Shown here one piece after another: positions 598 to 10,526 of a stretch of DNA of 64,000 nucleotides. Location of the stretch: positions 496,001 to 560,000 of the forward strand of contig NZ_CANMQS010000004.1 of assembly GCF_947500075.1 (NCBI RefSeq). The letters run 5' to 3'. The notes below the pieces were generated by a model. That model saw only the letters and a program-made list of their open reading frames with translations. It was not told the DNA's origin and ran no database searches. The stretch is from an uncultured Sulfitobacter sp. (GTDB taxonomy: Bacteria; Pseudomonadota; Alphaproteobacteria; Rhodobacterales; Rhodobacteraceae). Position 1 is the stretch's first letter, and each line of letters begins with the position of its first letter. The position numbers were made by a program, and so were the translations under genes.

Positions 598-1209
598 ATG
601 CCCGATCTGACCCGCCGTGTTGCCATGTCAGGGGCGCTCTTCGCCCTCGGAGGATGCAGTACGCTCAGCGCGCTCAGCAGCGCAAGTGAAGTGCTGGACA
701 CCTACGATCTGACCCCGGCTTCCGGGTCGAAACAGGGGCGGCGGACCGCGCGCACCTTGCTGGTCGCCCGCCCGCAAGCCACCGCGGTGCTGACAACAGA
801 CCGCATTCTGGTCAAACCGGATCCCGCAACCGTCACCTACCTGCCGGACGCGCGATGGGGGGACGAACTCCCTGCCGTGGTGCAGTCCCTGTTGATCCGC
901 AGCATCTCTGAAACCGGGCGCATCGGATATGTGGGGCGCAGTGATGCGGGCCCGGTGCCGGACAAGGCGATGCTTGTCCGTATAGATGCGTTTGAAGTTC
1001 AGGAGGTACCTGCCGGCGGCTACCTTGTTGCGGTGGATATGGACCTGACGATCCTCAACGACCGGGACCAGACCGTCGTTGCATCGCGCCGCTTTCAGGA
1101 CACCGCCCGGATTCCAGATGATCAGCCAGCGACCATCGTCGGCGCGTTTCAGGCCATCCTTGATGCTGTGTTGCCGGCAATCGCCGATTGGGCGGTTGTG
1201 CGGGTGTAG
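598..1209 (+). CDS. ABC-type transport auxiliary lipoprotein (PqiC-like)
   Basis: The protein has 203 residues. The N-terminus reads as a lipoprotein signal with lipobox LGGC (cysteine near residue 20). A start at 598 is supported by a perfect AGGAGG at 585-590. The body (VLTTDRILV, YLPDARWGDELPAVVQ, VDMDLTILN) matches the PF03886 family, outer-membrane-anchored lipoproteins that work with MCE/ABC lipid transporters. It lies 4 bases after the MCE gene and is surely co-transcribed, closing the operon. Its molecular role, probably contacting the MCE tunnel from the outer membrane, is inferred from PqiC. Confidence 0.8.
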   Translation: MPDLTRRVAMSGALFALGGCSTLSALSSASEVLDTYDLTPASGSKQGRRTARTLLVARPQATAVLTTDRILVKPDPATVTYLPDARWGDELPAVVQSLLIRSISETGRIGYVGRSDAGPVPDKAMLVRIDAFEVQEVPAGGYLVAVDMDLTILNDRDQTVVASRRFQDTARIPDDQPATIVGAFQAILDAVLPAIADWAVVRV

Positions 1210-1316
1210 CGGGGACCGGCAGCGAAAGCGGAACGGCATTGATCCAGATCAGGCGGGACGGGCGAAAGCGCTGTAGCGATGGGGCGACACCCACCTGCGC
1301 CTGAAAGGACGATGAT

Positions 1317-2402
1317 ATGCTGTCACGTCGACGACTGCTGACCACGGGTCTGTCCGCCGCCGCTCTCTGCGCCGTTGGCTACAGCATGTGGCCCCGCCTT
1401 GATGCCTACAATGAACAAGTCGCCCGCCAAAGACGGCTGATGGAAGCTGACCCGGAACGGGCGGATCTGATCCGCATGTCCACACTGGCCGCCAACAGCC
1501 ACAACACCCAGCCGTGGACCTTCCAACTGGAAGACCGCCGCGTGATCATCCGTCCGGATTTGACCCGGCGCACGGCTGTTGTCGATCCGGAGGATCATCA
1601 CCTCTACATCAGTCTGGGATGTGCTGCTGAAAACCTGTCTATCGCGGCCCGCACCCATGGATGGCAGCCGGCGCTTTCCGTTGTGCGCGGGGCGGAAACC
1701 GCGATCTCCATCGACCTCGACAGCACCGGTGCGAAAGCCTCTTACCTCTATCAGGCGATCCCCTTGCGGCAATCAACCCGGTCGGACTATGACGGGCGGG
1801 CGGTGCCGACACAGGACCTGAACACGCTGGCGGCGGCCGCAGCCCAGGAGGGCGTGTCGGTTCGGTTTGTCACAGACCCTTCTGACATGGATGCGATTGC
1901 AGATCTGGTGGTCGCGGGCAACGGCGTCCAGATGGACAACCCTGCGTTCATTCAGGAATTGCGCGACTGGATCCGGTTCACACCGGACCAGGCGATTGCC
2001 ACCGGGGACGGGCTCTTTTCAGCGTGCAGCGGCAACCCGGTCGTACCCGAATGGATGGCGGCGCGTCTGTTTGATCTGTTCTTCCAGAAAGAGAGCGAGA
2101 ACGACAAATACCGTCGGCACATCAGATCCTCTGCCGGGATCGCCGTCTTCACGGCCGATCAACAGGATGCAGCGCACTGGATCAATGTAGGGCGCAGCTT
2201 TCAGCGGTTCGCGCTGCAATCCACAGCGCTCGGCATTCGCAACGCCCATATCAATCAGCCCATCGAGGTGCCTGAACTGCGCCGCGACTTTGCAGGCTGG
2301 CTTGGGGACGCCACAATCCGTCCAGACCTGATTGTGCGATTTGGCTATGCCCCGGCATTGCCAATGTCCCTGCGTCGTCCGGTGGCGGATGTGGTCATCT
2401 GA
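1317..2402 (+). CDS. Acg-like nitroreductase-family protein with Tat-type signal
   Basis: The protein has 361 residues. The N-terminus carries SRRRLLTTG followed by a hydrophobic stretch, a twin-arginine-type export signal. The mature part begins with the NSHNTQPWTFQL motif typical of Acg-like FMN-binding nitroreductases and has the later RFGYAPALPMSLRRP tail. Such proteins bind FMN, but their substrates are poorly known. It sits upstream of a TRAP transporter and a reductive dehalogenase on the same strand, with 118 bases before the next gene, so it may or may not share their transcript. Its link to dehalogenation is inference only. Confidence 0.75.
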   Translation: MLSRRRLLTTGLSAAALCAVGYSMWPRLDAYNEQVARQRRLMEADPERADLIRMSTLAANSHNTQPWTFQLEDRRVIIRPDLTRRTAVVDPEDHHLYISLGCAAENLSIAARTHGWQPALSVVRGAETAISIDLDSTGAKASYLYQAIPLRQSTRSDYDGRAVPTQDLNTLAAAAAQEGVSVRFVTDPSDMDAIADLVVAGNGVQMDNPAFIQELRDWIRFTPDQAIATGDGLFSACSGNPVVPEWMAARLFDLFFQKESENDKYRRHIRSSAGIAVFTADQQDAAHWINVGRSFQRFALQSTALGIRNAHINQPIEVPELRRDFAGWLGDATIRPDLIVRFGYAPALPMSLRRPVADVVI

Positions 2403-2473
2403 CCGTGTCTGGTGCCCCCTGATTTCCCGCGTAAGGAGAGGTCGCACAGCGCGCCTTGCCGTCACCGCCACGC

Positions 2474-2504
2474 TTGATACTGTCCCCGTAACAGACCGTA
2501 TCTT
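2474..2504 (+). promoter_or_regulatory. possible promoter before the TAXI-TRAP/rdhA operon
   Basis: TTGATA at 2474-2479 and TATCTT at 2499-2504 resemble -35 and -10 boxes with a long spacer of 18-19 bases. A strong ribosome site (GGGAGGG, about 2506-2512) and ATG at 2521 follow. The match is visual only and the spacing is not ideal. Confidence 0.25.
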
Positions 2505-2520
2505 TGGGAGGGAAAACCGA

Positions 2521-3477
2521 ATGAAAACACTGATCAAATCGCTTGTTGCAGCATCCACACTGGCGCTGCTGGCCACCACTGCCACCGCGCAGGACCGGAT
2601 CACCTATAAATCCGCCAAATCGACGTCGTCCTACTACCAGATGGGCGTGCAGATCGCCGAAGCGATGCGCGCAGGCACGGACGGCAATGTTGTGGTGACT
2701 GTGGAAGAAAGCCAGGGCTCCGTCCAGAACGTGATGGAAGTCCGCGCCCGTGGCGGCGATTACGTCTTTACCACGCCGCCTGCGCTGGTCGGGCTGGCGC
2801 AGGACGGCAAGGCGATGTTCAAGGACAAGGGCGATCCGGCCTTTGACACGATCCGTGCGCTTTTCCCCATTCCGTCCCTGACCATGCACTTTGTCGTGTC
2901 AGAGGCGAGCGGGATCACCTCCTTCGATGAAATGGAAGGCAAGACGATCCTGCTCGGTTCCGGGTCCTTTGGGGCGCGGGAAGGGGCGAAATACCTCGGG
3001 CTCTTCGGGCTTGAGGGCAAGGTGACCCTTGCGGATTCCGAACTGTCCAACGCGGTGGGCGCGCTCAAGAACGGCCAGATTGACGGCTTTGTGACGGCGG
3101 GATCTTTCCCTGCACCCAATGTGATCGAGGCCGCCGCCTCGACCGGTGTCAAAGTGCTGTCACTGAGCGATGACCAGGTGGCCAAGACCAAGCGCACGCC
3201 GCTGACCATTCCGGCAGGCACCTATGCCGGGCAGGACGCGGACATCTCCACCACATCGCTGCCCGTGGTGGCCTACACCACCGACAAGATGAGCGATGAC
3301 ACCGCCTACCTGCTGACCAAGACCTATTGGGAGCAGAAGGAAAACCTTGGTTCAGCTGCGGCATGGTGGAACGGCGTGGATGCAGGCATGATCGGCAACA
3401 TCAGCACCCGGATCCACCCCGGTGCGATCCGCTACTACGAAGAAGTGGGCGCGCCCCTGACAGACGCCCATCGCTAA
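2521..3477 (+). CDS. TAXI-family TRAP transporter solute-binding protein
   Basis: The protein has 318 residues. It has a clean Sec signal (about 23 residues, ending ATAQ) and a mature start ITYKSAKSTSSYYQMG, characteristic of TAXI binding proteins. It catches the substrate in the periplasm and hands it to the fused permease encoded 51 bases downstream. ATG 2521 is preferred over upstream in-frame codons because it starts the signal peptide and has a GGGAGGG ribosome site. The substrate cannot be read from sequence; the neighbouring reductive dehalogenase suggests an organohalogen acid, which is inference. Confidence 0.88.
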   Translation: MKTLIKSLVAASTLALLATTATAQDRITYKSAKSTSSYYQMGVQIAEAMRAGTDGNVVVTVEESQGSVQNVMEVRARGGDYVFTTPPALVGLAQDGKAMFKDKGDPAFDTIRALFPIPSLTMHFVVSEASGITSFDEMEGKTILLGSGSFGAREGAKYLGLFGLEGKVTLADSELSNAVGALKNGQIDGFVTAGSFPAPNVIEAAASTGVKVLSLSDDQVAKTKRTPLTIPAGTYAGQDADISTTSLPVVAYTTDKMSDDTAYLLTKTYWEQKENLGSAAAWWNGVDAGMIGNISTRIHPGAIRYYEEVGAPLTDAHR

Positions 3478-3483
3478 GGACAT

Positions 3484-3512
3484 CAGCGCGCCAGCCTGTG
3501 GCCGGGGCGCTG
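3484..3512 (+). other. hairpin between TAXI binding-protein and permease genes
   Basis: CAGCGC at 3484-3489 pairs with GCGCTG at 3507-3512, with an inner GCC/GGC pair. There is no T-run, so this looks more like an mRNA 3'-end protector, which would favour binding protein over permease, than a strong terminator. Confidence 0.4.
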
Positions 3513-3528
3513 ACCATCGGGCTTTGAC

Positions 3529-5295
3529 ATGACACAGATGCGGACACCGTGGATCGCGTTGGGACTGCTGACCATCGCGGCCCACCTCGGGTTGATCTTT
3601 TATGGTCTGGTGCCGAACCTCGTGTCACGGCCGCTGCATCTGGCGTTGATCCTGCCCTGGGTGTTTGTGTTCGGCGCCTCGTCCGTGCCCCGCGCTGTGC
3701 TGGGCGGTGCTGTGGCCCTTATCGGCATTGCCTGCTGCGTGTGGATTGCGCTGAACCATCAAGTCTTGCGCAATCAATACGGATTTATCGAAGGGCAGGG
3801 GCAAACCGTCATGGCGGTGTTCCTGCTGCTGCTGGTGATGGAAGGCGCACGCCGGATGATCGGCTGGCCGCTGCCGCTGGTGGCGCTTTTGATGCTGGCC
3901 TATGGCCTCTTCGGCCAACACATCCCCGGAGAGTTCGGCCATTCCGGCACCCCGCTGGGCAGCTTTCTGGGTACGCTGGTGATTGCCGAAGGCGGCATCT
4001 GGGGCAGTCTGACAGGGGTATCGGTGGGCGTCGTCTCCGTCTTTGTGATCTTCGGCGCGGTCCTGAATGCGGGTGAAGCGGGGCAGGGTTTTATGAACGT
4101 CGCCTCCGCCGCCGCCGGCCGGTTGCGGGGCGGGGCGGCGAAGGTCTCCGTGCTCTCCTCGGCGCTCTTTGGCTCGATCTCCGGCTCGGCCTCGGCCAAT
4201 GTCGCTTCCACCGGGGCGATCACGCTGCCTGCAATGACCAAGCTGGGATACCCCAGGAAACTGGCCGCCGCGGTTGAGGCGGTGGCGTCTTCGGGTGGGC
4301 AGATCATGCCGCCGCTGATGGGGGCAGGGGCCTTTGTCATGGTCGAACTGACCGGCGTGCCCTACACCGACATCATGTTCGCGGCCCTGCTGCCCGCCAT
4401 TTTGTTCTTCACCACCGTCTGGTTCGGGATCGACGCCTATGCCACGCGGTATGAACTCAAGGGCATTCCAGCGCACGAACGCCCCGCGCGGCGCGACGTG
4501 GTTGTGACGTCACTGTTCTTTGCCGTGCCCTTCACCGTGCTGCTGCTGGCGATGTTCGCGCTCAAATACACCCCGCAATATGCCGCCGCACTGGCGATTT
4601 TCGTGGGCCTCGTGGCGCTCCTGTTCAATGGCAAGACCGGACTGGACATCCCGCTGGGTCTGAGCCGCCTGGGCGATGCCTGCCTGAATGCCGGCAAACA
4701 GATCGCCATGATCGGATCGATCATCATCTGCGCGTCGATTGTGATCGGGGTCTTGGGCATCACCGGTTTGGGGGTCAAGCTGACCTCCTTTATCGTCTCG
4801 GGGTCCGGCGGGTTGCTCTGGCCCTCCTTGCTGCTGACCGCATTGGCCTGCCTGCTGCTGGGGATGGAAGTCCCCACCACGGCGGCCTACGTCATCTGTG
4901 TGTCTGTCGCGGGACCTGCGCTGATTGATCTGGGGCTGGAGCCCTTGCAGGCGCATCTCTTTGTGTTCTGGTTTGCGCTTTTGTCCACCATCACGCCACC
5001 GGTCTGCGGCGCGGTTTTCATCGCGGCCGGTATGATCGGAGAGAACTGGCTGCGCGTCGCGCTCAGCGCGATGGCGCTGGGGATCGGGCTTTACGTCATT
5101 CCGCTGGGCATGATTGCAAACCCGGACATCATCCGGCTGAAGCTGAATGCCGCAGGGGCGGGTCTGGCCTTTGTGCAAATGGCTGCCGGGTTGGGGTGTC
5201 TGTCCCTCGGGATCATCTCAAACCTGAATGGGGTGTTGCGTGTTGCACTTATTCTGGGCGGGTTGTGGATTGTGTTTATCCGGGTGTTGATCTGA
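3529..5295 (+). CDS. TRAP transporter fused permease (DctQ-DctM type, TAXI system)
   Basis: The protein has 588 residues and is almost entirely hydrophobic. The first 130 residues form the DctQ-like helices. The remainder is the large DctM-like subunit with signatures such as GSISGSASANVASTGAIT and SSGGQIMPPLMGAGAFVM, typical of fused TAXI permeases. It imports the ligand of the preceding binding protein, driven by an ion gradient. The ribosome site is weak, and an alternative ATG lies three codons downstream. The next gene, the dehalogenase, starts 42 bases later, so the two are probably co-transcribed. Confidence 0.9.
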   Translation: MTQMRTPWIALGLLTIAAHLGLIFYGLVPNLVSRPLHLALILPWVFVFGASSVPRAVLGGAVALIGIACCVWIALNHQVLRNQYGFIEGQGQTVMAVFLLLLVMEGARRMIGWPLPLVALLMLAYGLFGQHIPGEFGHSGTPLGSFLGTLVIAEGGIWGSLTGVSVGVVSVFVIFGAVLNAGEAGQGFMNVASAAAGRLRGGAAKVSVLSSALFGSISGSASANVASTGAITLPAMTKLGYPRKLAAAVEAVASSGGQIMPPLMGAGAFVMVELTGVPYTDIMFAALLPAILFFTTVWFGIDAYATRYELKGIPAHERPARRDVVVTSLFFAVPFTVLLLAMFALKYTPQYAAALAIFVGLVALLFNGKTGLDIPLGLSRLGDACLNAGKQIAMIGSIIICASIVIGVLGITGLGVKLTSFIVSGSGGLLWPSLLLTALACLLLGMEVPTTAAYVICVSVAGPALIDLGLEPLQAHLFVFWFALLSTITPPVCGAVFIAAGMIGENWLRVALSAMALGIGLYVIPLGMIANPDIIRLKLNAAGAGLAFVQMAAGLGCLSLGIISNLNGVLRVALILGGLWIVFIRVLI

Positions 5296-5337
5296 TCTAC
5301 CTGTACCCGTGACGGCGTGGAGTGAGGCCTTGCAACA

Positions 5338-8300
5338 ATGACAATACGGTTCTTTTCAGACGCAAAACGCCCTGTCCACATGGGGCCTTACCCGACCGAA
5401 CGTCTGGCGCGGATTGCTGATGTGCCTGACCTCACCTCCGTACCGCCTGTCGTGCATTTGTCCTACGACAGGCCCTCTGACCCGCGCTCCATCGTCAATG
5501 CGATGCGCGAACATCAGGCGATGCTGGATGCGATCCGGGATGGGTTGATCAACAAGGCCGTGGCGCAGGCGCCGACAGACCCGCAGGAACGCGCCAACCA
5601 CCTCAAGGCGTTTGGGTATTTCTCCGATGCAGCCCTTGTCGGGACCTGTCTGCTGCCCGCTGCTGCCGCGCTGGACACACCACACCGCAACCCGGATGTG
5701 GCGCGGCTGGCGCAGGACCTGCAAACCCGGCAGACCAAAACGCTGGCTTCCGGCATCGACATGATCATGGCGGACCTCAAGGAATCGGTGGAGGCACCCG
5801 ACACCGGGATTGACGGCCACACCCACGCGCTTGTGTTCCTCTATGAAAACCCCCGCGATCCGGAGCCGGGGGAGGAAGGCACCGATTGGATCAAGGACGC
5901 GCAGGCCCACCGGGCCGGGCTTCTGGCGGCCGAAACCGCTGTGGTGCTGGCCAACTACCTGCGCCTGCTGGGCTATGATGCCCGCGGCCACACGGTTTCC
6001 AGCGCGGATGTCGATCTGAACAGACTGGCCGTTGCCGCAGGCCTTGCCACGGTTGAAGGCGCGACCCTCTCGCACCCCTACATCGGCGCGCGCTTTGGTC
6101 TGGCGGCTGTGACCACCACATTCGAAGTCGCCCCCGACCACCCCCTTGCCCCCATGGCGCAACAACCCAAATCCGCCTTCGGCGCCGCCTGGACCTGGGG
6201 CACCGCATCGGCCAAGAACGCACTGAACGCGCTGCCCTATGCCAAGCGCCGCTTTGTCGATGGCGCGCATCCCTTTGAGAACCTCAAACGGGTGGAGACA
6301 CCCACGACCTACATTGATGAACCCAACGTCGCCCGCGTCCCCAAACGCACGGACATGTTTGCGCGGGCACAATTCGGTGACATGGGCAAGAAAATGCAGG
6401 ACGCCGCCAAAGGCGGGCATTACGTGCGCAAGGCCGCCCCCTCGATGGCGCAACGGCGGGCCTTGGGTGCCTTTGTGCTGCTTCAGGACGGGGAGACTGC
6501 CCCGGAACAACAAACCCTCGACCCAGGTAAGGCGGCCGCACTGGTCAAAGCGACCAGCTATTACCTCGGCGCGGATGCCGTTGGCATTTCGCGCTGCCCC
6601 GACTGGGCATGGTACAGCCACGACGCACGCGGAGAGGTCATTGATCCGCCCCATGATCAGGCGCTCAACATGATCATTGATCAGGGGTATGAGACGATGG
6701 ACGGATCGTCCGGCGACGACTGGATTGCCGTGGCCCAATCCATGCGCGCCTATCTGCGCTTTTCGCTGCTGGGCGGGGTGATCGCACGGCAGATCCGCAA
6801 CCTTGGCTACAGCGCCAAAGCCCACACCGTGATGGACGGAGAGGTCCTGCAGCCGCCCTTGCTGCTTCTGTCCGGTCTGGGCGAAGTCAGCCGGATCGGA
6901 GAGGTGATCCTGAACCCCTATCTGGGCCCGCGTCTCAAATCCGGCACCGTGACCACCGACCTGCCCATGGCCCATGACAAGCCGATTGACTTTGGCCTGC
7001 AAACCTTCTGCGAAAGCTGCAACAAATGCGCGCGGGAATGTCCGTCAGGGGCGATCACGCTGGGCCCCAAACTGATGTTCAACGGCTATGAGATCTGGAA
7101 ATCCGACAGCCAGAAATGCGCCACCTACCGTGTCACCACCCCCGGCGGTGCAATGTGCGGGCGCTGTATGAAAACCTGTCCCTGGAACCTTGAGGGCATC
7201 TTCAAGGAGAGACCCTTCCGCTGGGCAGCGATGAATGTACCGAAACTGGCCCCGGCTTTGGCCAAACTTGATGATCTGGTCGACAATGGCACGCTGAACC
7301 CGGTCAAAAAGTGGTGGTGGGATCTGGAGATTGAGGAAGATGGCGGCTACCGCCCGACCAAGCAACCTGTGAACAAACGGGGGCTGCAAAAGGAGCTTGA
7401 TCTGAAGTACGAAGACCAGACCCTCGCCGTCTACCCCGCGCCGCTGGCCCCGCACCCCTATCCCTATCCCTTCCCGATGGACCGCGAAGCGGGGATCGAA
7501 GCATATCAGCAGATGGTCACGGCAGAGGAATACCAGCGCCGTCTGGCGCAGGGGGACACCAGCGTTGTCCACAACGTCCTGCCCGAAAGCGAAAGCCCGG
7601 TCATTCAGGTCACTGTCACCAAGGCCGAGGAAACCGCGACCGGCGTGATGAAGTATGAATTTGAACCCGTGGCGGGGGGCGATCTGCCCGCATGGGAGGC
7701 AGGCGCGCATCTGGATATCGTGGTCGCACCTGAGTTCCTGCGGCAATATTCCATGTCCGGCGATCCGGCGGATCGCTCCAAGTATCAGATCACCGTCCTG
7801 CGGGAGGACGAAGGCCGGGGTGGGTCGCTGTTGATGCACCGCATATTCACCCAAGGCCGGCGGGTGTTCATCTCTCACCCGATCAATCATTTCCCGCTTG
7901 AGCCGTCCGCCCGCAAAACGATCCTGCTGGGCGGCGGCATCGGCATCACGCCGATGGTGGCCATGGCCCATACCCTGCATGCGCAGGGGCGCGACTTTGC
8001 CATGCACTACTCTGGCCGCAGCCGCGCGACGATGGGGCTTCTGGAGGACATCGCGGGCTTTGACTGGTCCGACAAGGTGCAGCTTCACATCACCGACGAA
8101 GGCAGCCGTGCCGATCTGACGGAAGTTCTCGGCACCTATCAACCCGGCACCCATGTCTACACCTGCGGGGCAGACCGCTACATGGCCTCGGTCATGGCGG
8201 CGGCAGAACAGGCGGGCTTCCCCGAGGAAGCCCGCCATCTGGAATATTTCTCCGTCCCGGAGCAACCGGAATATGTAAACCACCCCTTCACGCTGAAACT

Positions 8301-8547
8301 GGCCCGGTCGGGCAAATCGCTCACCGTGCCCGCCGACAAGGCCGCAACAGACGTGCTGGCCGAAAACGGCATACAGGTGGACGTCAAATGCAGCGATGGC
8401 ATCTGCGGTGTGTGCAAATGCGGTCTGCTCTCCGGACAGGTGGAGCACCGCGACTTCGTGCTGTCCAAAACGCAACGGGAAACGGCCCTGATCCTGTGCC
8501 AGTCACGCGCATTGGACAAAGACGGCGTGGTTGAAATCGACCTTTGA
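5338..8547 (+). CDS. rdhA: self-sufficient reductive dehalogenase (cobalamin domain + 2x[4Fe-4S] + FMN/NAD(P)H reductase + [2Fe-2S])
   Basis: The protein has 1069 residues and no Tat signal, so it is cytoplasmic. Residues about 1-550 form the cobalamin-binding core of respiration-independent reductive dehalogenases (NpRdhA/BhbA type). Two [4Fe-4S] sites follow: C558, C561, C564, C568 and C594, C607, C610, C614. A phthalate-dioxygenase-reductase-like module comes next, with flavin motif RQYSMSGDP at 802 and nucleotide motif LLGGGIGITP at 863. The last domain is a plant-type [2Fe-2S] ferredoxin (C1018, C1023, C1026, C1054). Y426 (WYSHD) and K494 (LGYSAKAHT) are candidate catalytic residues. The expected reaction is NAD(P)H-driven removal of halide, probably from an aryl substrate. 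The upstream TAXI-TRAP genes probably supply the substrate. The family call is firm; the substrate is unknown. Epoxyqueuosine reductase (QueG) is related but far shorter and lacks the reductase. Confidence 0.88.
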   Translation: MTIRFFSDAKRPVHMGPYPTERLARIADVPDLTSVPPVVHLSYDRPSDPRSIVNAMREHQAMLDAIRDGLINKAVAQAPTDPQERANHLKAFGYFSDAALVGTCLLPAAAALDTPHRNPDVARLAQDLQTRQTKTLASGIDMIMADLKESVEAPDTGIDGHTHALVFLYENPRDPEPGEEGTDWIKDAQAHRAGLLAAETAVVLANYLRLLGYDARGHTVSSADVDLNRLAVAAGLATVEGATLSHPYIGARFGLAAVTTTFEVAPDHPLAPMAQQPKSAFGAAWTWGTASAKNALNALPYAKRRFVDGAHPFENLKRVETPTTYIDEPNVARVPKRTDMFARAQFGDMGKKMQDAAKGGHYVRKAAPSMAQRRALGAFVLLQDGETAPEQQTLDPGKAAALVKATSYYLGADAVGISRCPDWAWYSHDARGEVIDPPHDQALNMIIDQGYETMDGSSGDDWIAVAQSMRAYLRFSLLGGVIARQIRNLGYSAKAHTVMDGEVLQPPLLLLSGLGEVSRIGEVILNPYLGPRLKSGTVTTDLPMAHDKPIDFGLQTFCESCNKCARECPSGAITLGPKLMFNGYEIWKSDSQKCATYRVTTPGGAMCGRCMKTCPWNLEGIFKERPFRWAAMNVPKLAPALAKLDDLVDNGTLNPVKKWWWDLEIEEDGGYRPTKQPVNKRGLQKELDLKYEDQTLAVYPAPLAPHPYPYPFPMDREAGIEAYQQMVTAEEYQRRLAQGDTSVVHNVLPESESPVIQVTVTKAEETATGVMKYEFEPVAGGDLPAWEAGAHLDIVVAPEFLRQYSMSGDPADRSKYQITVLREDEGRGGSLLMHRIFTQGRRVFISHPINHFPLEPSARKTILLGGGIGITPMVAMAHTLHAQGRDFAMHYSGRSRATMGLLEDIAGFDWSDKVQLHITDEGSRADLTEVLGTYQPGTHVYTCGADRYMASVMAAAEQAGFPEEARHLEYFSVPEQPEYVNHPFTLKLARSGKSLTVPADKAATDVLAENGIQVDVKCSDGICGVCKCGLLSGQVEHRDFVLSKTQRETALILCQSRALDKDGVVEIDL

Positions 8548-8690
8548 GGGGCGCAGCCCCCCTTAAAATCCGGATCAGCCGTGTTCACAATTCCTTCCAA
8601 AACACCACGCTCCATTGCAGGTTCCGCCCGAAAGACGTTAGATCACCTAAAAAGAACCAGATCGCAACGACCGGTCTGACTGTGTGGTGT

Positions 8691-10526
8691 ATGGGTGTGC
8701 AGGGGATAGGTGTGAAAAGAGCAGCAATCGGGGTCCGCGTCAGGCAACTGGCGCTTGCCTGCGCAATGGGCTGTGCAACAGGGTCCATCGGGCTGGCTGC
8801 GGATCTCAGCCTGAAAGGCATTGATCCGGACAGTGCGCTCTATGCCACGCTTCTGGGCGGCTCGCTTCTGGCAGAGCAAACGGCCGAAGACGCAACCCCA
8901 TCGACGCAGGAACTGGTCGCCGCCGCACAGGCGGACTACGGGCGGCTGCTGGCCGTGCTTTATGATGAGGGGTTCTTCGGCCCGGTCATCACGATCACAC
9001 TGGACGGCAGGGATGCCACGACGATTCCGCCCGTGCAGCCCCCCAGCCGCATCTCCACTGCGGTCATCACCGTTGATACCGGTCCGCAGTTCCGCTTTGG
9101 CACGGCCCGCATCGGCCCCATCGCCCCCGAAACCGAGCTGCCCGAAGGTTTCGCCACCGGGCAGACCGCCAGCCTGAGCGTGCTCAAAGACACGGCGGCG
9201 GCGGGGATCGAAGGCTGGCGGGCGCGAGGCTACGCCAAAGCCACGCTGGCAGGTCAGGACCTCACCGCGCGCCACCGTGATCAGACGATTGATGCGGACA
9301 TCACACTGGCCCCCGGCAAACGGCTGCGCTTTGGCCCGCTCAGCGTGAAGGGTGACAGCAAAGTGCGCACCGAACGCATCCTCGAAATCGCAGGCCTGCC
9401 CACCGGGCAGGTGTTCTCTCCCGAAGAACTGCGGCTGTCCCAGACCCGCCTGCGCCGCACGGGGGCCTTCAACGCTGTGGCCCTGCTCGAAGCGGACCAG
9501 ATCGGCCCGAATGATACCCTGCCCATCACCGCGCAACTCACCGACGCGCCCCAGCGCCGCTTTGGCTTCGGGGCAGAGCTTTCATCGCTCGAAGGGCTGA
9601 CGGTCAGCACGTTCTGGATGCACCGCAACCTGTTGGGCGGGGCTGAACGCCTGCGGCTGGAGGCAGAGATCGGCGGCATCGGCGGCAATTCAGGCGGTGA
9701 GGATTACACCCTCTCCGCCCGGTTTGAACGCCCCGCCACCTTCAACGAAGACACCAATTTCTACGCGCTGGCAGAATTGGCGCAGCTGGATGAGGTGAAT
9801 TTCTTCTCCCGCCAGTTCGACATCGAAGCAGGCATCGAACGCATCGCCAATGAAAACCGCACCTACCGTCTGGGCCTCGGCCTGCGCACAGCAGAGACGG
9901 AGGATGCCTTTGGCACCAACCGCTACACCCTGTTGACCCTGCCGCTGGAGGCGGAGTTTGACTACCGCGACGTGGAACTGAACCCCACGGATGGATACTT
10001 CCTGAAAGTCAGCGCAACGCCTTTCCTCGCCATCGATGGGGCCGACAATGGCGTGCGCAGCTTTGTGGATGCCCGCGTCTATCGCACCTTTGGCACGGAG
10101 CGTCCTGTGACCTTTGCCCTGCGCGGACAGCTGGGATCCGTAATCGGTCCCGCGTTGAACGTGGCGCCAGCGGATTACCTTTTCTACTCCGGCGGCGGTG
10201 GTACCGTGCGCGGGCAGCCCTATCAGGCGCTGGGCGTTGATCTGGGCGGCGGCAACGTCGTGGGCGGGCGCAGCTTTGTCGGCCTGCAAGCCGAAGCGCG
10301 GGTGAAGATGACCGACGCCATCGGCATCGTGGGTTTTGCCGATGCAGGCTACATCGGGTCTGAGGAATTCATTGATGGGTCCGGTGAGTGGCATTCCGGC
10401 GCGGGTCTCGGCCTGCGCTACGACACCGGGATTGGTCCCATCCGACTGGACCTTGCCGTGCCCACCTCCGGCCCGGACACGGGCGAGAACTTTCAGATCT
10501 ACATCGGCATCGGGCAGGCGTTCTGA
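8691..10526 (+). CDS. tamA: TamA, BamA-family outer-membrane assembly protein
   Basis: With the ATG at 8691 the protein has 611 residues and begins with a basic-hydrophobic signal peptide ending about AAD. GTG 8712 is an alternative start. The N-terminal half holds POTRA domains (GKRLRFGPLSVKGDSKVR is a typical POTRA edge). The C-terminal half is an Omp85 barrel with the GGGTVRGQPYQALG loop motif and a C-terminal GIGQAF strand. TamA forms a translocation and assembly module with TamB, whose ATG overlaps this stop by one base. The frame is open upstream as far as 8544, but the region before 8691 encodes no signal and looks non-coding. Confidence 0.9.
   Translation: MGVQGIGVKRAAIGVRVRQLALACAMGCATGSIGLAADLSLKGIDPDSALYATLLGGSLLAEQTAEDATPSTQELVAAAQADYGRLLAVLYDEGFFGPVITITLDGRDATTIPPVQPPSRISTAVITVDTGPQFRFGTARIGPIAPETELPEGFATGQTASLSVLKDTAAAGIEGWRARGYAKATLAGQDLTARHRDQTIDADITLAPGKRLRFGPLSVKGDSKVRTERILEIAGLPTGQVFSPEELRLSQTRLRRTGAFNAVALLEADQIGPNDTLPITAQLTDAPQRRFGFGAELSSLEGLTVSTFWMHRNLLGGAERLRLEAEIGGIGGNSGGEDYTLSARFERPATFNEDTNFYALAELAQLDEVNFFSRQFDIEAGIERIANENRTYRLGLGLRTAETEDAFGTNRYTLLTLPLEAEFDYRDVELNPTDGYFLKVSATPFLAIDGADNGVRSFVDARVYRTFGTERPVTFALRGQLGSVIGPALNVAPADYLFYSGGGGTVRGQPYQALGVDLGGGNVVGGRSFVGLQAEARVKMTDAIGIVGFADAGYIGSEEFIDGSGEWHSGAGLGLRYDTGIGPIRLDLAVPTSGPDTGENFQIYIGIGQAF

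Follow-up and report, generated by a model that had tools for sequence, protein, structure and literature searches.

Does a reductive dehalogenase gene that lies directly behind the genes of a solute importer form one system with them, and on which compounds would such an enzyme act? This question is raised by a locus in a 64,000-nucleotide stretch of an uncultured Sulfitobacter sp. (contig NZ_CANMQS010000004.1, positions 496,001 to 560,000; hereafter the window). According to the open reading frame list, four genes at positions 1317-8547 follow one another on the + strand: an Acg-family gene, the gene of a TAXI solute-binding protein, that of a fused TRAP permease and rdhA, which encodes a reductive dehalogenase fused to a reductase. 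An earlier note, made from the letters alone, had described them as a compact operon for uptake and self-sufficient dehalogenation, and the binding protein, the fused permease, the 1069-residue dehalogenase-reductase and the nitroreductase-like gene in front were all recovered in that order and on that strand. The enzyme class, the reductase fusion and the bhbA precedent for a neighbouring receptor gene held up on analysis; a conserved arrangement of TAXI and rdhA did not. In our best overall explanation, the self-sufficient RdhA probably removes bromine or iodine, as an accessory enzyme, from halogenated 4-hydroxyphenyl acids, and the TAXI system is a possible importer; related genomes suggest a role for it in breaking down aromatic acids similar to tyrosine.

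The core of the protein matches the crystal structures of NpRdhA (E 8e-160), and its C-terminal part matches phthalate dioxygenase reductase 2pia (E 2e-55) and includes a Fer2 domain (PF00111). The cluster cysteines and the flavin and nucleotide motifs listed in the earlier note are present: besides the two [4Fe-4S] motifs, the reductase has the [2Fe-2S] set C1018, C1023, C1026 and C1054, and the fusion contains RQYS and GGGIGITP, which we take to be the flavin and the nucleotide motif, respectively. Equivalents of NpRdhA Phe291, Ser422, Met423, Tyr426, Lys488 and Arg552 are all kept and are invariant across the 120 rows compared, the active-site serine (Ser422) being S468 and Tyr426, Lys488 and Arg552 corresponding to Y472, K534 and R598. 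Tyr426 acts as the proton donor in NpRdhA (PMC7565698, in part). The N-terminus, MTIRFFSDAKRPVHMGP, has no Tat signal as judged by eye. An AlphaFold2 model of the fusion was of low confidence (pLDDT 60.7, pTM 0.51) and supports no claim; a cobalamin-binding fold and a substrate cavity are putative features, predicted through homology to the solved NpRdhA. By homology, then, the enzyme is an ordinary member of the BhbA/JtRdhA-type self-sufficient catabolic reductive dehalogenases, and the NAD(P)H-type chemistry proposed earlier is supported in the same way.

JtRdhA of Jhaorihella thermophila is driven by NADPH and works in air on brominated and iodinated phenolics, and the chlorinated compounds tested with it only inhibited the enzyme (PMC10463259, in part). 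Judged from the description in that part of the paper, the window protein shares with it the RdhA core joined to a reductase domain, the absence of a Tat signal and the Y/K/R active site. To BhbA, encoded on plasmid pBHB of Comamonas sp. 7D-2 (NC_021077), it is 50% identical over the full length. As the earlier note had stated, a transporter receptor gene stands beside bhbA; it is annotated 40 bp upstream. This receptor, part of a binding-protein-dependent importer, is of the tripartite tricarboxylate transporter (TTT) type, whereas that of the window is TAXI. In contrast to the window gene, bhbA is accompanied by protocatechuate 4,5-dioxygenase genes, and BhbA has Ser at the second-halogen pocket residue where the window protein has Val465. 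NpRdhA of Nitratireductor pacificus (PDB 6zxu, 4ras) resembles the window protein in its RdhA core and the six active-site residues but has no fused reductase (PMC10463259, in part), and its Ala419 and Asn452 are replaced by Val465 and Val498. An argument from the dihalogen pocket (Ala419 to Val465) was dropped: Val stands in 117 of the 120 rows, so that Val465 is uninformative for the window protein specifically. A further likeness, again by description, is to Ros_A3X954, the catabolic debrominating RDase of a marine Roseobacter sp.; the same source reports bhbA homologues as widespread across the Roseobacter clade (PMC13101508, in part).

On the model of JtRdhA, electrons from NADPH would pass through the reductase and the two [4Fe-4S] clusters to cobalamin, which would take an ortho bromine or iodine off a phenolic acid in air, and Tyr472 with Lys534 would supply the proton.

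Genes of this kind were sought in a family sample of 295 genomes and a genus sample of 62 (61 congeners besides the host). Relatives of rdhA were found in 115 genomes of the family sample at E <= 1e-100, including a few with a partial protein only (G033, G096, G102, G160), and in 53 of the genus sample at E <= 1e-50. By these homology searches the enzyme type is common in the family. In a tree of 120 rows, window included, built after the removal of 33 duplicate rows, the window RdhA falls inside a 55-row clade (SH-aLRT 99, quick method). The nearest row is a congener (L213), 81% identical, whose rdhA sits at an unrelated site; the highest pairwise identities, 83%, are to a Ruegeria (L075) and to a Rhodobacteraceae record (L036). 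In five genomes (G302, G309, G312, G099, G269), the rdhA match is split in two pieces, which suggests decayed or frameshifted copies.

The clue to a substrate comes from the neighbours of rdhA in related genomes. Among loci with at least 4 kb on each side, hmgA or hpaD was found within the available flanks in 16 of 40 in the window's clade versus 0 of 37 outside it; the window is one of the 40 and not of the 16. The genes named hpaE, hpaD, hpaH and hmgA near rdhA orthologues exceed their cut-offs (TIGR02299, TIGR02295, TIGR02312 and TIGR01015, respectively), and hpaG is named from matches below the cut-off. In three congeners (L216, L217, L219), rdhA lies between hpaH and the half of the cluster that holds a FAD monooxygenase gene and hmgA. 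Across the family sample, hpaD is present in 57 of the 115 rdhA genomes versus 38 of the 180 without rdhA (p=5e-7, kinship ignored). In some loci of other clades, pobA is found near rdhA. Molybdenum hydroxylase genes lie downstream of rdhA in three Ruegeria loci (L054, L071, L080); the large subunit in L071 has as its best NCBIfam match the alpha subunit of 4-hydroxybenzoyl-CoA reductase, far under the cut-off.

In the host, contig C6 carries on one side hpaE, hpaD, hpaG, hpaH and a small gene taken for hpaF, and on the other hmgA and the genes for fumarylacetoacetase, a FAD monooxygenase and maiA. The naming of this hmgA rests on 87% identity; the profile search, which covered only part of the gene, gave 451.7 bits against a cut-off of 510.75. 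The two halves are separated by a block of about 23 kb without rdhA, at the very junction that holds rdhA in L216, L217 and L219. One reading of this absence is relocation of rdhA; another is that rdhA was replaced from elsewhere, which was considered because the L213 rdhA lies at an unrelated site and the top identities (83%) are to L075 and L036. The block itself (contig C6 of G000, about 191-214 kb; L244, L245) contains two TRAP large-permease genes with neighbours and 5-oxoprolinase-like genes, named mostly by eye. Between hpaD and hpaG of the homoprotocatechuate cluster of the host lies a gene for a pyridoxal-dependent decarboxylase (PF00282; L245:13852-15255, - strand).

Judging from the gene order of these relatives, the natural substrates would be halogenated 4-hydroxyphenyl acids, such as 3-halo-4-hydroxyphenylacetate derived from halotyrosines, and the dehalogenated products would enter the homoprotocatechuate and homogentisate pathways, for which the host genome has genes at other sites. 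In the parts of the open-access literature covered, we found nothing that connects TAXI, or gene clusters for homogentisate or homoprotocatechuate, with self-sufficient RdhA, and the parts of PMC10463259, PMC13101508, PMC7565698 and PMC11574862 covered name no natural marine substrate of the enzyme with certainty.

Several observations weigh against this explanation. Neither hmgA nor hpaD lies nearby in 24 of the 40 assessable clade loci, and the host rdhA is on another contig than its hpa and hmg genes. Of the 57 genomes in the family sample that have both rdhA and hpaD, one has them close together (10.7 kb), and in 9 the two share a contig. The rdhA of L213 adjoins neither TAXI nor hpa/hmg genes. 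As for the importer, orthologues of the window TAXI occur in 35 of the 295 family genomes (the 34 others 66-78% identical), and their distribution follows neither gene: rdhA is present in 13 of these 35 genomes versus 102 of the other 260 (Fisher p=0.86), and hpaD in 15 of 35 versus 80 of 260, which is not significant (p=0.18). No correction for phylogeny enters the co-occurrence and neighbourhood statistics, and near-copies are present among the clade rows.

The adjacency of this TAXI to rdhA is real, and among the genomes examined it occurs only in that of the host. Two sets of loci bear on it. The first comprises the best 80 named rdhA loci, of which 54 have at least 5 kb on both sides and three have less than 300 bp upstream. 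Here TAXI stands directly upstream of rdhA once (L068); this TAXI is not orthologous (29-30% identical to that of the window), the order of receptor and permease is reversed and the rdhA belongs to another clade. L017 and L052 have weak TAXI matches (25-27% identical) at a distance from rdhA of about 7-8 kb, which were not counted as adjacent. The second set consists of 20 TAXI loci from 20 of the 34 other TAXI-bearing family genomes: a fused permease adjoins the TAXI orthologue in all 20, rdhA was found in the flanks of none, and the TAXI-TRAP pair has no constant further companion, the commonest other cluster occurring in 9 of 21 loci in varying positions (this profile leaves out row L140, which the gene caller put outside the TAXI cluster).

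Closer relatives give a similar picture. TAXI was found in 33 of the 62 genus genomes. Among the 28 congeners with both genes, the window included, the two are at most 25 kb apart in six, again counting the window, and on different contigs in ten; the count used 52 of the 53 rdhA genomes, the one omitted (G336) having no TAXI match. In the five close cases other than the window, many unrelated genes intervene; four have the same gene order, and in three of these four, hpa genes also occur in that stretch. The 27 other congeners that have both genes, ten of them on different contigs, showed no direct adjacency. In the family sample outside the genus, five genomes carry the two genes on a single contig, separated by at least 183 kb, and seven on different contigs. 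With the host set aside, 14 family genomes have both TAXI and hpaD; the two are no more than 20 kb apart in one of them and on different contigs in 12. The proposal of a conserved TAXI-rdhA operon was consequently rejected (one non-orthologous case in the best 80 loci, none in 20 TAXI loci, the window alone among 28 congeners): the earlier note had named a lack of conserved TAXI neighbours across orthologues as a refutation, and the TAXI neighbour is not conserved. Three genomes (G352, G316, G312; L246-L251) carry TAXI-TRAP, hpaE-D-G-H and a second rdhA type, 61-63% identical to that of the window, within about 25 kb; in two of the three, a sulfatase gene is present in the same stretch.

The solute importer thus resembles an accidental or recently arrived neighbour more than it does a conserved partner. 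In the plainest form of this view, the TAXI pair brings in a carboxylate that has nothing to do with the enzyme, and transcription of rdhA depends on a promoter of its own or on read-through, an alternative that we hold to be close to an even prospect. It agrees with the lack of a constant further neighbour of TAXI-TRAP across the 20 other loci, with the absence of co-occurrence of TAXI and rdhA, and with the fact that the recurrent companions of rdhA in the window's clade are hpa and hmg genes. However, the gap between permease gene and rdhA is a short one of 42 bp, the five congeners show some loose linkage, and TRAP components are over-represented directly upstream of rdhA. Such a component (same strand, within 150 bp) precedes 7 of 77 rdhA genes versus 9 of 1070 other genes of the same loci (p=3e-5). 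The seven are six DctM and one TAXI, and six of the nine background cases look like the small permease gene within TRAP operons, placed after DctP; when these are excluded, the background is 3 of 1064 (p=5e-7).

On the RdhA tree, five changes are needed to account for the five labelled DctPQM rows, no fewer than in shuffles, and these upstream arrangements are therefore scattered. The data support the broader notion that an uptake module has been put in front of rdhA at a minority of loci, and not a rule specific to TAXI. In the explanation that we prefer, TAXI-TRAP would be a widespread module that arrived just upstream of rdhA, probably on one transcript with it, and may import aromatic acids from the slot taken by DctPQM or TTT genes in some other species. 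A broader proposition, put forward tentatively and in our view somewhat doubtful, is that in one large clade of marine Rhodobacterales and relatives, the self-sufficient RdhA would be a halogen-removing accessory of 4-hydroxyphenylacetate and tyrosine breakdown, acting on naturally brominated tyrosine-derived acids, and that DctPQM, TTT and TAXI would have been set independently before rdhA as interchangeable uptake modules.

The strongest claim for the importer, that of a dedicated uptake-dehalogenation operon in which TAXI-TRAP would bring the halogenated substrate into the cell specifically for RdhA, seems unlikely to us. In its favour, the genes share a strand with no terminator called in the 42 bp before rdhA, where the fold is unremarkable, and co-transcription of TAXI, TRAP and rdhA is likely on this sequence evidence; the excess of TRAP components upstream of rdhA and the TTT receptor in that place on pBHB point the same way. 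L068 provides a second, independent TAXI case, with receptor and permease in the opposite order, and the six of 28 congeners, window included, with TAXI and rdhA within 25 kb indicate a loose regional linkage in some congeners and so lend the importer idea modest support. Yet 22 of the 35 TAXI-bearing family genomes have no rdhA and the genes do not co-occur, none of the 20 orthologous TAXI loci has rdhA in its flanks, adjacency is unseen in the 27 other congeners, and in the five close ones, four with one shared order, many unrelated genes lie between.

The ligand of the TAXI receptor bears on the same question. Its best match in the PDB is 8s4j, the TAXI-family protein VcGluP; in the alignment to 8s4j, positions S40, V44, Y45, Y46, Q93, H123, E125, Y200 and M201 fit the VcGluP numbering by eye (PMC11574862, in part). 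Tyr45 is kept in the window TAXI, whereas Q93, E125, Y200 and M201 of the glutamate site are, as read by eye, replaced by T, L, T and A, and glutamate is therefore probably not what the window protein binds. The part of PMC11574862 covered cites a TAXI transporter for o-phthalate, which makes an aromatic ligand possible; import of the halogenated substrate by the window TAXI is possible on these grounds.

A QueG-like epoxyqueuosine reductase, or a B12 protein that does not dehalogenate, is highly improbable: the homology is distant (TIGR00276, 23.9 bits against a cut-off of 200), TIGR02486 is exceeded, the NpRdhA active-site Tyr, Lys, Arg and Ser are kept and a reductase is fused. QueG, a better alignment with which the earlier note had named as a refutation, was ruled out.

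Turning to the remaining features (Table 1), the Acg-like protein matches the Acg nitroreductase structure PDB 2ymv (E 3e-7), and its N-terminus, SRRRLLTTG, looks Tat-like by eye. Matches occur in 4 of the 61 other congeners (27-33% identical), and a search of the other rdhA and TAXI loci, some of which are short of upstream DNA, gave none at E 1e-5. The gene was rejected as a component on account of this sparse distribution, and is probably a neighbour outside the system. No sigma-70-type promoter was called in 1000-9000. The G+C-rich hairpin at the end of rdhA has no T-run, was not called by the terminator scan and lies in a stretch with a z-score near 0 against shuffles, and it is consequently a weak signal of a transcript end. 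A stable hairpin is possible in the gap between TAXI and TRAP genes (window 3470-3535; -25.5 kcal/mol, z -1.8) and perhaps sets the levels of receptor and permease. The simple gene caller may miss or mis-start genes; in the window it shortens rdhA itself. A trio of 5-oxoprolinase-like genes, named by eye, recurs before rdhA in six loci of Phaeobacter/Roseobacter type (L047, L048, L056, L062, L063, L069), five of which have a LuxR-type regulator gene between the trio and rdhA.

Table 1. Features of the dehalogenase locus, in positions of the window
Feature	Position	Strand	Evidence
Acg (Rv3131)-family FMN oxidoreductase-like gene, 361 aa	1317..2402	+	NF047509 302.7 bits, cut-off 199
TAXI-family TRAP solute-binding protein, 318 aa	2521..3477	+	TIGR02122 TRAP_TAXI 170.1 bits, cut-off 84.35
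Fused TRAP permease, 588 aa	3529..5295	+	TIGR02123 TRAP_fused 460.9 bits, cut-off 320.65; with the TAXI receptor above its own cut-off, a TAXI-TRAP transporter
RdhA fused to phthalate-dioxygenase-type reductase, 1069 aa	5338..8547	+	TIGR02486 200.8 bits, cut-off 160.35
Tyr472, equivalent of NpRdhA Tyr426, predicted proton donor	6751..6753	+	alignment; identical in 120/120 rows, window included
Lys534, equivalent of NpRdhA Lys488	6937..6939	+	alignment; identical in 120/120 rows
Two [4Fe-4S] motifs: C558, C561, C564, C568 and C594, C607, C610, C614	7009..7179	+	eight Cys invariant in 44-sequence alignment
Arg598, equivalent of NpRdhA Arg552	7129..7131	+	alignment; identical in 120/120 rows
C-terminal reductase (flavin, NAD(P)H and [2Fe-2S] domains)	7597..8544	+	2pia match, residues 754-1064; Fer2 PF00111, residues 990-1058
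Hairpin, possible transcript end	8543..8567	+	fold; G+C-rich, overlaps and follows the rdhA stop codon

A single striking gene order should thus not be read as a conserved operon, the pairing of this TAXI with rdhA having been seen in no other genome examined. The link of rdhA to hpa and hmg neighbourhoods, for its part, provides a concrete and testable class of substrates for an enzyme that is common in the family.

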